Virus record (IMG/VR): IMGVR_UViG_3300042314_000185
Location: 1-24,462 of that record
DNA length: 24,462 bases
Direction: 5' to 3' (one strand)
DNA from: a virus
Both the position numbers and the translations under genes were made by a program. The notes below the pieces were generated by a model. That model was not told where the DNA came from, did not search any database, and worked only from the letters and a program-made list of their open reading frames with translations. Shown one piece after another: positions 16,888 to 20,025 of the stretch (positions are counted from its first letter, which is position 1; each line of letters begins with the position of its first letter).

Positions 16888-19091
16888 TATCTTACTACCT
16901 CCAAATATGTCTTTCGATTGTCTACTACTGAGATGACTCTTGCCTGCGACCTGAGGGCCTCGACCATGTCATCGAACTCACGCTTGCGCTTGTTATTGAA
17001 CTTGCGGTAAGCCTCCTCGTAACGGACTCGACCACCTCGGTCAACCACGTAAGCCTCAAGCTGGTCCACGTCTCTCTGCCACTCGGACGCTGAGATTGCA
17101 CTTGCCATGCGAACTAGGTTCTCGAACCAATCCTCGGAGTAGCTGATTGCAGTCAGCATGTGCCTGAGCTTTACCTCGTCGGACTTGTCGGCCATTGCTA
17201 GCAGGATTGCACACTTCCAGACGGACAATGCAAGACGCTGGCGAGAAGGTTCAATAGACTCCTTCTCTCTGTGCGACTCGGCATAGTTGCCCATCTCCCA
17301 CTTGTACTGGTTGAAGCGCTCTAGTGAAGCTTGGCTCAGGCGAAGCGGCCTTGGGTTAGGCTGCCCCTTCTTTTGCCAATAAGTCACAGCATCGAATAGC
17401 TTGCGCACCATCTCATCAAGGATAGTGTCTTTGACCACTACTTCGTACTCATCCGCCTGCTGGATATCCTCTAGCTCTCGGCTTCGCTCTGGTGCATCTG
17501 CGGTCACGTAGATAAAACGTGCCAAGAATCCGGAGCGGAAGTACTCGGTTGTCAGAACGTCGGCAACCTTGCTAGTAATACCCATCAAGTACATGATGAA
17601 GTTAGTCTCAGCACGTTCGGTCTGGCGCTTGTCCTTGGATGAACGAATCACAACCGGAACGCTACCGTCGTAAAGCTCGGTGTAACGCTCAGCTGCCGAG
17701 GCCATGTAGGTCTTGTTCATAAAGTCCTTGAACATGCCCTGAACCTCATCGCGGTGTAGAAGGCTTGTCTTCTTGTCACGCTCAGCAAGGATTGCGGTCA
17801 CACCTTCAGGAGTAGCATCCGAACCGATGTCAATCTGGTAACCACCAAACTTCTCGTAGGAACGAATTACGCGGAGCATAAGGTTACGGCTAGTAGACTT
17901 ACGAGTTAGCGTGGTCTCACCTAGCACCATAAACCACAGGTTCAGGCCCATCTTGCCGTAGCGCGGCACAGCGTAGCCCCAGTCTGAAAAGACTGCGGAT
18001 AGCACCGTGAAAGCCGAGGCAATCTGATAACTCAGCGCACCGTCGGTCTTAGACCTAGCCCACTTGACGTAGTTGTCGATGAAGGTTGGCTCAAGCTGGA
18101 CAACCTCACGCTCTTCTTCGGTCAGGAAGGATACGGCAACCTTGTCAAATCGCGCCACTGGTGCATCTTCGGTAATCGGTTCTGGAACGTAGCTTGCCTC
18201 GCCCTGCTCAGCGGCATAGCTCTGCTCCGCCCGCTGGACCTCGCGCCATAGGTCGCCGTCAGCATCCAGACGCTTCGGGCGGTCTGGGCTGTGGTACTTG
18301 TTGCACTTAGCGTGGCGGGCTACAGTGAAGACTTCCTCGGCGGTTAGGCCCTCGCGGAATAGCTCCATCTCCAGCTTCCAAAGCAGGCGTGATAGGTCAG
18401 CGTTGAAAGCTGGCTGCTCCATGTAAAGGCCGACAATTTGAGGGTTGTGCGATAGCTTCTCAAGCACCTCAAGAATCGGTGGGAATCCTGCGGGCATCGG
18501 GAGGTCGGCCATCTCGCGGATAGGCTCGACCTCCACGTCGCCGTAGACCGCGTTGATTTCCTCGAAGCTGTAGACCTGCCCAGTAGTGGTGGCCTCGATG
18601 CTCCATGCGTCTTCACGCTTCAGGTTGCGGGTGTTTGGTAGGCGCAGTAGCTTAGTTGTGTTCCAGCCGGACTTGTCACAGCCCTGGTGAGAATGGGCGT
18701 AAGCAATCTTCTTAGCTAGGAGGGCAGCCTCAAGTGGCTCGACCTCTTGGTCAAGCATCCAGTAGGTGTGCCATCTCTTGTCCGAAGTTTGCACAGAGAT
18801 GCTAGGCTCAACTAGGAAGTTCTCTGGCTGGCAAGAATCAGCGTCGGCATAGATTACGTGAACAGTCTTGGCGTTCTCTTTAATGCGACGCGGTGCGTTG
18901 AATAGAATCGGGGAGAAGTAGACATCTTCCATTGCGTGAGCAGCTGCGAAGGCAGCCATCTCATGCTTCTGCTCTGGGTATTCATAGAACTTCTGCTCGG
19001 TTAGGTCGCCGCTAGAGGCGCTACGTACAACCAGCGTAGCGATGCCCGTTGCATCGCCATAAATCGCTGTCAAAAAGTCTGCTGTTTTCAT
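16887..19091 (-). CDS. Primase-helicase: RepB/PrimPol-like N terminus fused to P-loop helicase
   Basis: A 734-residue protein. ATG 19091 follows GGAGGAG. The N-terminal ~190 residues resemble a RepB/PrimPol-type primase: VYFSPILFNAPRRIKENAKTVHVIYADADSC carries the acidic metal-binding pair in YADAD, and SVQTSDKRWHTYWMLD has the conserved S..K..H pattern. A linker (residues about 190-340) leads to a P-loop helicase of the DUF3987-like type: the A motif is GETTLTRKS at 391-399 (note R397 where Walker A has Gly) and the B motif is LLHRDEVQ with D448/E449. The C terminus is a helical domain rich in Arg/Lys (YRKFNNKRKREFDDMV). The protein would prime and unwind phage DNA at the replication fork. 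It is the only replication initiator visible in the window. Upstream lies about 470 nt of structured non-coding sequence and a four-codon leader. Confidence 0.82.
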   Translation of the reverse strand: MKTADFLTAIYGDATGIATLVVRSASSGDLTEQKFYEYPEQKHEMAAFAAAHAMEDVYFSPILFNAPRRIKENAKTVHVIYADADSCQPENFLVEPSISVQTSDKRWHTYWMLDQEVEPLEAALLAKKIAYAHSHQGCDKSGWNTTKLLRLPNTRNLKREDAWSIEATTTGQVYSFEEINAVYGDVEVEPIREMADLPMPAGFPPILEVLEKLSHNPQIVGLYMEQPAFNADLSRLLWKLEMELFREGLTAEEVFTVARHAKCNKYHSPDRPKRLDADGDLWREVQRAEQSYAAEQGEASYVPEPITEDAPVARFDKVAVSFLTEEEREVVQLEPTFIDNYVKWARSKTDGALSYQIASAFTVLSAVFSDWGYAVPRYGKMGLNLWFMVLGETTLTRKSTSRNLMLRVIRSYEKFGGYQIDIGSDATPEGVTAILAERDKKTSLLHRDEVQGMFKDFMNKTYMASAAERYTELYDGSVPVVIRSSKDKRQTERAETNFIMYLMGITSKVADVLTTEYFRSGFLARFIYVTADAPERSRELEDIQQADEYEVVVKDTILDEMVRKLFDAVTYWQKKGQPNPRPLRLSQASLERFNQYKWEMGNYAESHREKESIEPSRQRLALSVWKCAILLAMADKSDEVKLRHMLTAISYSEDWFENLVRMASAISASEWQRDVDQLEAYVVDRGGRVRYEEAYRKFNNKRKREFDDMVEALRSQARVISVVDNRKTYLEVVR

Positions 19092-19102
19092 TGCTCCTCC
19101 AT
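19088..19102 (-). promoter_or_regulatory. Possible four-codon leader ORF coupled to primase-helicase start
   Basis: ATG GAG GAG CAA TGA reads M-E-E-Q and its TGA overlaps the primase-helicase ATG (ATGA). AGGAGG lies nine nt upstream of the leader ATG, while the leader's own GGAGGAG is the primase ribosome site. Translation of the leader would therefore cover the second site and restart at the primase. It is seen in sequence; the regulatory role is inference, and such a short frame can occur by chance. Confidence 0.35.
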
Positions 19103-19129
19103 TTCAATAGTCCTCCTGTTAAACTTTGC

Positions 19130-19184
19130 GGGTAGTCTGGACTTGCACCAGATGTAGTCATCGCGAGGTCCGCTCCTTCTACCC
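19130..19184 (-). ncRNA. T-arm/acceptor-like minihelix C
   Basis: On the - strand GGGTAG (19184-19179) pairs with CTACCC (19135-19130), with a possible extra U-G pair. Stacked on it is a T-arm-like hairpin TCTGG, loop TGCAAGT, CCAGA (19152-19136). The loop keeps U, C and A at the tRNA T-loop positions 54, 56 and 58 but has G at 55. The 26-nt middle part has no strong hairpin. It shares the layout but not the sequence of elements A and B. Confidence 0.5.
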
Positions 19185-19259
19185 ATCCCCTGCCTAATGA
19201 CGCACCCAGGGACTGTGGTGTCAGGCTACTACTCTAGAATTCACCTGAACGGATATATA

Positions 19260-19278
19260 ACTTGCACCGAAGTGCAGT
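19260..19278 (-). other. C(UUCG)G tetraloop hairpin
   Basis: On the - strand ACTGCAC-TTCG-GTGCAAGT folds into seven base pairs with one bulged A and a C(UUCG)G tetraloop, the most stable RNA tetraloop type. It is followed by TTATATATCC, not a clean U-tract, so a terminator is doubtful and a structural cap or processing stop is as likely. Confidence 0.65.
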
Positions 19279-19303
19279 CAGGGATAACCCCGTCGTCTAC
19301 CGC

Positions 19304-19381
19304 GCCCTAGCTGAGAGTCGAACTCAGCAGTCCATAGAAGTGAAACGGAGGAGGGAGGAGATGGACTACTCCTGTTAGGGC
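19304..19381 (-). ncRNA. tRNA-sized T-arm/acceptor-like element A with pyrimidine-rich loop
   Basis: On the - strand GCCCTA (19381-19376) pairs with TAGGGC (19309-19304). The T-arm is CTGAG, loop TTCGACT, CTCAG (19327-19311), extendable by one G-C pair. In place of the D and anticodon arms there is an 8-nt strand and a 7-bp helix AGTCCAT/ATGGACT (19367-19361 with 19335-19329) closed by a 25-nt loop containing CTCCTCCCTCCTCC. Total 78 nt, tRNA size. The layout (acceptor, no D-stem, extended helix, T-arm) recalls the tRNA-like domain of tmRNA, but no mRNA-like part is visible. The 8-nt strand (AGGAG) could also pair with the start of the loop, giving a competing fold. Confidence 0.65.
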
Positions 19382-19386
19382 TTGTA

Positions 19387-19461
19387 GTGGGAAACGGAAC
19401 CGAAGACGTAATCGAAGATTTTGACTAGATTGAAGTGGCTAGTAAAAATCCCGTTTCCCAC
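19387..19461 (-). repeat. Long bulged inverted repeat (22 bp total)
   Basis: The + strand GTGGGAAACGG (19387-19397) is the exact inverse of CCGTTTCCCAC (19451-19461). Directly inside, 19417-19428 (GATTTTGACTAG) pairs with 19439-19450 (CTAGTAAAAATC), 11 of 12 positions, around a 10-nt loop. The right arm is paired throughout its 23 nt except one mismatch; the left arm carries a 19-nt bulge that holds most of a direct repeat, CGAAGA at 19401 and 19413. This amount of pairing is unlikely by chance. Confidence 0.85.
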
Positions 19462-19464
19462 AGT

Positions 19465-19513
19465 CCCTAGCCGAGAGTCGAACTCGGAGCGCCATTGCTG
19501 TGCCAACCTAGGG
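19465..19513 (-). ncRNA. T-arm/acceptor-like minihelix B
   Basis: On the - strand a 6-bp acceptor-like stem (CCCTAG 19513-19508 with CTAGGG 19470-19465) encloses 20 nt and a perfect T-arm: CCGAG, loop TTCGACT, CTCGG (19487-19471). The T-arm stacks directly on the acceptor stem as in tRNA. At 49 nt it is too short for a tRNA. The 20-nt middle part has only a weak 3-4 bp hairpin. The whole 3' strand is repeated in minihelix A with one compensated base-pair change. Confidence 0.7.
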
Positions 19514-19560
19514 TTTGTGTGCGTTATGCAGTCGCACCCCTGCCTTGGTTTCTTAGGAGA

Positions 19561-20025
19561 TTACCAAGTCTCTCCTTCTACCGCAGTTGCGCCCAAGGAT
19601 GCAAGAACATCCTCACTGCTGGTGGCCTTATCAAAGCCACTTACCTCGTTGCGAGGTGCGCCGTTAATGTCCGAGCCAACCTTGACTCGAACGCCGATGC
19701 CCTTACCAAGCAGGTCGGCGGTCGCTGGCACCTTGAAGTTACCAGCCTTTACATCGAAGCCAAGCGACTTGAAGAAGGCTGCTGCCTTCCATGCGTCGTT
19801 GCCTGCGTACAGTGGAACGTAGCTGAAGACGCGACGGTTCTCGTACTGGCCCTCAGAGATGCGGAACTGGACGTTGAAGCGTGGCTTGCCCTCGTTAGGA
19901 CCAGAACGAACCTGCTCCTCCTTGATGTCAAACACAGTTGCATTGTACGAACCAGCTGGAATCGGCTCAATAGAACCGGACTTCGACTCAAGCGACTCAG
20001 CGCTAAACGAAATAGTGTAACTCAT
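19561..20025 (-). CDS. Single-stranded-DNA-binding / DUF669-like protein
   Basis: A 154-residue protein whose ATG overlaps the Sak4-like gene's stop (TAATG). The layout MSYTISFSAESLESKSGSIEPIPAGSYNATVFDIKEEQVRSGPNEGKPRFNVQFRISEGQYENRRVFSYVPL is that of DUF669-type phage proteins, OB-fold-like and usually encoded beside recombinases: a PIPAGSYNATV start, a charged strand pair, K-P-R-F-N-V-Q-F-R-I and E-N-R-R-V-F strands, then a helix (DAWKAAAFFKSLGFDV) and an LGKGIGVRVKVG strand before an acidic tail. These proteins are thought to bind ssDNA and load the Sak4/RecA-like partner. A classical SSB with the same C-terminal acidic tip is the alternative. The stop lies inside a small hairpin at the start of the non-coding region. 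Confidence 0.75.
   Translation of the reverse strand: MSYTISFSAESLESKSGSIEPIPAGSYNATVFDIKEEQVRSGPNEGKPRFNVQFRISEGQYENRRVFSYVPLYAGNDAWKAAAFFKSLGFDVKAGNFKVPATADLLGKGIGVRVKVGSDINGAPRNEVSGFDKATSSEDVLASLGATAVEGETW

Follow-up and report, generated by a model that had tools for sequence, protein, structure and literature searches.

The window analysed here, that is, the whole stretch of 24,462 bases, is a virus record in which a gene for a protein resembling single-strand DNA binding proteins (SSB) and a DNA primase gene lie on the minus strand on either side of a non-coding stretch (19,092–19,560). The upstream SSB-like gene has PHROG matches that include single strand DNA binding protein families (E 3.5e-06 and 1.7e-05), and the downstream gene matches PHROG 10514, DNA primase (E 2e-168). 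Read along the minus strand, the order after the SSB stop codon is a pseudoknot, element B, a long hairpin, element A, a T-arm-like hairpin termed C, the Shine-Dalgarno (SD) motifs of the primase and the primase itself. The features are as follows:

19,561–20,025, minus strand: upstream gene, SSB-like protein of 154 amino acids (open reading frame and PHROG matches)
19,519–19,543, minus strand: H-type pseudoknot, stem S1 GCAG (19,540–19,543)/CTGC (19,528–19,531), stem S2 GTGCG (19,533–19,537)/CGCAC (19,519–19,523)
19,464–19,513, minus strand: element B, short tRNA-like element with a 6-bp acceptor, T-arm and D-position GG, without anticodon arm or anti-SD loop
19,387–19,461, minus strand: long hairpin separating B from A, with the stem GTGGGAAACGG/CCGTTTCCCAC
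19,303–19,381, minus strand: element A, tRNA-like structure (TLS) with an acceptor of 6 bp plus A.C, GG, an anticodon-position arm and a T-arm, without D stem
19,336–19,360, minus strand: CU-rich loop of A, in which CTCCTCC occurs twice and is complementary to GGAGGAG in the primase leader
19,311–19,327, minus strand: T-arm of A, CTGAG TTCGACT CTCAG
19,111–19,117, minus strand: first SD-like motif of the primase leader, AGGAGGA
19,094–19,100, minus strand: second SD-like motif, GGAGGAG, directly before the primase start codon and a 7-nt exact complement of the A loop
16,887–19,091, minus strand: downstream gene, DNA primase of 734 amino acids (open reading frame and PHROG), the proposed regulated gene

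A coding role for the stretch from the pseudoknot to A is ruled out by stop codons in all three minus-strand frames. The single-sequence folding energy of the whole intergenic RNA is ordinary (z -1.26), and a distant blastn search of the intergenic stretch against cultured phages returned one chance-like match only. No host or prophage was identified, as a contig scan with the primase alignment gave no relative. At the primase start, tiny open reading frames overlap the start of the gene, encoding MEEQ-stop in the window (19,088–19,102, minus strand) and MGQWR-stop or MAQWR-stop in three relatives (L019, L021 and L022). These frames, which were seen in some of the relatives only, suggest translational coupling across the primase start.

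An earlier note on this DNA had described A and B as paired T-arm and acceptor elements, and its coordinates hold, on the minus strand. Its central observation is confirmed: just two letters separate the 23-nt 3' strand of A (CTGAGTTCGACTCTCAGCTAGGG) from that of B (CCGAGTTCGACTCTCGGCTAGGG), and they form the two sides of a single T-stem pair, which is U-A in A and C-G in B; the acceptor 5' strands pair in both elements, as GCCCTA/TAGGGC in A and CCCTAG/CTAGGG in B. The statement that neither element has an anticodon arm stands for B and fails for A, where TAGTCCAT and ATGGACTG form an arm of 8–10 bp, extendable to 10 bp in the window, around the 25-nt loop CTCCTCCCTCCTCCGTTTCACTTCT. Base 73 of this A is a G. 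In the minimum-energy fold of the window's A as a single sequence, the anticodon-position arm is missing, its loop being paired instead with CAGGAG in the D position. The earlier note had observed neither the pseudoknot nor the anti-SD loop nor the gene order, and the main feature is the anticodon-position loop, complementary by its letters to the SD region of the downstream primase gene.

Element B was found in four contigs among the loci read (the window, L002, L003 and L004), where it occupies the place behind the pseudoknot that is held by a full TLS in other phages. The most plausible interpretation of B is a reduced duplicate of A that lacks the pairing loop and that was inserted, in the clade of the window, downstream of the pseudoknot. 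The stem of the long hairpin that separates the two is kept in L004 through compensating changes (GATGGTAGGCG/CGTCTACCATC). A third T-arm-like element, C (19,130–19,184, minus strand; GGGTAG...TCTGG TGCAAGT CCAGA CTACCC), lies closer to the primase. It is missing in the near relatives L002–L004 and may be a tRNA relic or a product of chance.

Relatives were reached through the neighbouring proteins, as IMG/VR loci sharing the gene order, and where the sequence suffices they show the SSB stop codon, then the pseudoknot, then a TLS matching A. Thirty copies (29 distinct rows) were assembled into alignment A1, from which the covariance model R1 was built. Of 145 relatives, 80 viral loci that encode the primase were kept, and R1 finds a TLS in 75 of them, with 59 distinct copies. 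The other five begin at most 187 nt upstream of the primase match, and wherever a locus can be read the TLS stands before the primase. The window's A, which belongs to the training set of the model, scores 66.8 bits. R1 also detects copies in loci that had been collected solely for their pseudoknot pattern; its matches below 30 bits in such loci are those in L153, L193, L195 and L206, and L153, L193 and L206 resemble ordinary tRNA genes by eye.

The earlier note had made its reading depend on whether the stems pair in homologues, and the homologues favour the structure. In A1, 83.1% of cells pair, as opposed to 63.1% in shuffled alignments and at most 42.7% with a slid partner, and double-change cells number 151 compared with 52 in shuffles. 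The model-fitted alignment of 59 distinct rows, which favours structure by construction, gives 85.4% paired cells (61.7% shuffled, at most 44.2% slid) and 340 double-change cells across three helices (102 shuffled), with both-side changes in 20 of 21 pairs; within it the anticodon-position arm also covaries, with 78.7% of its cells paired. In alignment A3, pairing reaches 100% of cells in the T-stem and 83.3% in the acceptor. Minimum-energy folds of 31 single sequences contain the acceptor in 31, the T-arm in 22 and the anticodon-position arm in 21 cases.

Family members lack a D stem and share the T-loop TTCRANY. Among 67 distinct copies, C74 is present in all, A73 in 65 and an encoded CCA in seven. 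GG directly follows the acceptor in 66 of these copies and CTCC occurs in the loop region of all 67, two features that are circular for the A1 seeds, which had first been filtered for CTCC or CTTCC and for GG; later R1 matches were unfiltered, though R1 had learned the letters of the seeds. The earlier suggestion of a tRNA mimic is thus supported across the family by the T-arm, the acceptor, the D-position GG, A73 and C74. The low-scoring tRNA or tmRNA call for which ARAGORN had been suggested did not appear: the program reports neither kind of gene in the window, nor a tRNA at the TLS of the relatives scanned. An Rfam scan of the window (to E 1) gives no relevant match, and no family matches the TLS in 17 relatives scanned at gathering scores or in three scanned to E 0.1; the yjdF family (Rfam RF01764) is without a match at all three settings. 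Element A has no match to RF00023 and no message domain. ARAGORN (window and TLS of the relatives scanned) and Rfam thereby rule out an ordinary tRNA or tmRNA, and no description of the element was found in the open-licence PMC literature searched. True tRNAs do lie nearby in many relatives, often between the TLS and the primase. The distance from the TLS to the start codon exceeds 100 nt in 23 of 43 clusters and is at most 45 nt in 15 of them; compact leaders of the L347, L357 and L014 type have 21–30 nt here. In three loci (L042, L047 and L116), TLS and primase are separated by long non-coding stretches, which contain hairpins in common (e.g., ...TACGGAATTGCTGGTC...CCGAGGCAGGTGG...) as well as true tRNAs and may hold further structured RNAs.

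An H-type pseudoknot ends 3–6 nt before the TLS in 59 of 64 distinct upstream stretches. Its plan is constant while its stems differ, with 22 distinct S1 and 22 distinct S2 sequences, and for each of the 59 pseudoknots at most one of 60 shuffles scores equally high. The five upstream stretches without a directly preceding pseudoknot are those of the window, its near kin L304/L003 and L306, and L370 and L378; in the window and its near kin, B and the long hairpin are inserted between the pseudoknot and A. A readthrough or frameshift signal was set aside, since a non-coding TLS stands behind the pseudoknot in this family. The small pseudoknot itself is far more widespread than the TLS, with at least 244 matches to two patterns in viral contigs (L066–L303). 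Among the matches listed, 218 of 244 follow the stop codon of an open reading frame of at least 50 codons at a distance of up to 60 nt, compared with 49 of 244 random positions, and most are 5–15 nt past the stop codon. It occurs in many gene contexts, also before ordinary tRNAs, and an Rfam search at permissive E of four short loci bearing it returned no family.

The TLS loop resembles the anti-SD of 16S rRNA, and loop and leader vary together between loci. The leader SD reads GGAGAAGAAG and the loop CTTCTTCTCC in L203, L184 and L357; the corresponding pairs are CAGGGAGGAGG and CCTCCTCCCTG in L313 and L056, AGAGGAG and CTCCTCT in L229, GAGAAAGGG and CCCTTTCTC in L343, and AGGAGAG and CTCTCCT in L014. 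A permutation test with one phage per primase-identity cluster (43, 30 and 16 clusters at 90, 80 and 70% identity) supersedes a first test that ignored relatedness; it leaves out L319, for which no start codon was found, and primases with fewer than 150 amino acids readable in the clustering. The longest complementary run between a loop and its own leader averages 8.02, 7.97 and 8.06 nt at the three levels, as opposed to 6.76, 6.79 and 6.69 nt for permuted partners, and was matched by none of 50,000 permutations at each level; the same holds for duplex energy. The excess averages only about 1.2 to 1.4 nt, and since SDs resemble one another, part of the complementarity is generic.

Several further comparisons narrow down the target. 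The loop fits its leader better than an assumed 3' tail sequence of 16S rRNA does in 21 of 30 clusters, equally well in five and worse in four. Among the tested gene leaders of the same locus, that of the primase is the best target in 23 of 34 cases, tied in eight and beaten in three. In the median of 31 loci, 1.5% of the 36-nt segments taken across the locus match the loop no worse than the leader does, with L043 (32%) and L362 (62%) as outliers; these two and L366 are the three of 30 clusters with runs of at most 6 nt. The best match ends 3–14 nt before the start codon in 18 of 30 clusters, 16–23 nt in eight and 0–2 nt in four. The window is a poor example, with A located 211 nt from the primase start, a run of 7 nt and its own leader ranking fourth of 30 for its loop. 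Across the clusters, as judged from these sequence comparisons, the letters of the TLS loop track the SD region of the primase gene in the same phage.

What the comparison demonstrates is a conserved tRNA-like RNA and its primase-specific complementarity, not regulation as such. Our preferred reading, which we consider probable, is that the TLS is a cis-acting regulator whose anticodon-position loop would pair with the primase SD and thereby lower or delay the primase relative to the SSB. Pseudoknot and TLS would together form a conserved phage mRNA element between the SSB and primase genes of one cluster. We infer SD masking because the primase follows the SSB in the same cluster, with the element separating the two in all readable relatives: pairing of the loop with the SD in the mRNA would keep ribosomes off the primase start, so that a shared transcript would yield less primase than SSB, or yield it later. 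Acting as a rigid scaffold, the tRNA shape would present the anti-SD loop much as a tRNA presents its anticodon. Release might occur when the TLS is displaced or cut away, with tRNA-processing enzymes or a protein such as the SSB binding the pseudoknot as candidates. A more far-reaching version, rather unlikely in our estimation, envisages a tRNA-shaped removable lock in which the ‘anticodon’ reads the primase SD and host RNase P and 3' processing, or an SSB–pseudoknot complex, would remove the lock, so that replication start would be timed by the state of the host tRNA machinery or by the level of SSB.

Distance bears directly on the choice between cis masking and a free RNA excised like a tRNA, the loop of which would bind the primase mRNA, or SDs generally, in trans as an antisense or sponge. 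At 80% clustering, the loop–leader match is as specific in loci where TLS and primase are more than 100 nt apart (n=18; own run 8.11 nt versus 7.03 nt permuted, reached in 0 of 20,000 permutations) as in those where TLS and start codon are at most 60 nt apart (n=12; 7.92 versus 6.81 nt, 49 of 20,000). Where more than 100 nt and true tRNAs intervene, processing would cut TLS and primase apart, which counts against cis masking and makes a processed or trans-acting form possible in the far loci; the tRNA-like conservation of A73 and C74 points the same way. That the loop mostly prefers the primase leader to the remaining leaders tested in its phage, however, argues against a general sponge, and the constant place before the primase counts against a trans-acting RNA, which we hold to be an unlikely explanation on the whole. 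A similarly low probability is given to a processing mark, by which RNase P and 3' processing would punctuate the transcript and determine where the primase mRNA has its 5' end, with a secondary role for the CU-rich loop. The tRNA-like ends and elbow residues are conserved, the compact loci (at most 45 nt) have little but the SD between TLS end and start codon, and Arthrobacter phage Molivia has annotated tRNAs behind a pseudoknot of the same plan at this place. A processing mark, however, gives no reason for the loop to vary with the SD of its own gene, and a pseudoknot 3–6 nt before the acceptor would be an odd leader for RNase P.

A switch controlled by a ligand or protein, as in the yjdF riboswitch with its azaaromatic ligands, in which one fold would free the SD or the folded TLS would even raise translation, appears quite improbable. 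PMC9142559 reports that tRNAs upstream of an SD raise translation in vitro, with 2- to 6.3-fold increases for tRNA-like leaders, and in the window's clade the D-position CAGGAG can pair with the loop instead. Against such a switch, A1 shows no conserved purine-rich junction like that of yjdF, and the pairing loop is not the T-loop. That the TLSs are degenerate or ordinary tRNA genes with an anti-SD likeness by chance is very unlikely: true tRNAs may be common neighbours, but the TLS has no 7-nt anticodon loop, and the CTCC shared by all copies, the covarying helices and the permutation tests all stand against such an origin. The preferred cis-acting reading would, if true, make a tRNA fold a cis-regulator of a phage replication gene, with the anticodon position reading a ribosome-binding site instead of a codon, and would offer a case for studying how a phage balances primase and SSB, the products of a single gene cluster.

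Among known RNAs, the TLS is similar to bacterial tRNAs and the tRNA-like domain of tmRNA in its acceptor, its T-arm with the TTCRANY loop, its GG and its A73, and shares with tmRNA the lack of a D stem. It differs from both in a CU-rich loop of about 10–30 nt in place of the 7-nt anticodon loop and from tmRNA in having no tag reading frame. Separate from the TLS, four distinct sequences in phages of this group, at L019:5766-5848, L021:3406-3488, L022:5678-5760 and L066:2105-2183 resemble a message-less tmRNA, that is, a tRNA-like domain of about 80 nt without the message domain of roughly 300 nt. They show a GTTTCGAC D-loop, a P2 stem varying by matching changes, a kept G3-U70 and a conserved AAAGCCGTATACGG loop; the first three match RF00023 slightly below the gathering score (E 1e-14 to 3e-13), and that in L066 is a pattern match only. 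The tRNA-like structures of plant viruses are likewise viral tRNA mimics with a pseudoknot, located at the 3' end of RNA genomes, whereas the TLS is internal to a DNA phage gene cluster and precedes a gene.

Cultured phages offer partial parallels. Phage Molivia has the order exonuclease, RecA-like, SSB, RNA and primase, and its RNA by eye comprises the pseudoknot followed by an annotated tRNA-Gly and a tRNA annotated as undetermined; no anti-SD loop was seen in it. Stenotrophomonas phage Jojan60 has annotated tRNAs at this place on the other strand, and no TLS was seen by eye in Curtobacterium phage Nonagon. In phage T4, gp32 binds a pseudoknot in its own gene 32 mRNA, upstream of gene 32 (PMC3014915). 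Both loci place a small pseudoknot in the mRNA of a phage replication gene, adjoining an SSB gene; that of T4 lies upstream of gene 32 itself, whereas the one described here lies behind the SSB gene and before the primase. Based on this precedent the SSB is a candidate ligand of the pseudoknot, and its binding there is a guess by analogy.

The closest precedent for the working principle is the yjdF riboswitch, a tRNA-like leader with a T-loop that pairs with the SD in the off state (PMC9142559). Both yjdF and the TLS are cis-acting tRNA-like mRNA leaders, the latter by our reading, with a D-loop/T-loop elbow and a loop that is complementary to the following gene's SD. In yjdF, the T-loop/P4 pairs with the SD and the purine-rich J1/2 is the ligand site, whereas the TLS would use its anticodon-position loop and has no such junction; it also differs from yjdF in lacking a D stem and in having a pseudoknot in front. 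The TLSs constitute a new family of phage tRNA-like leaders, apparently masking an SD, and would stand alongside yjdF as a compact case for how tRNAs turn into regulators.
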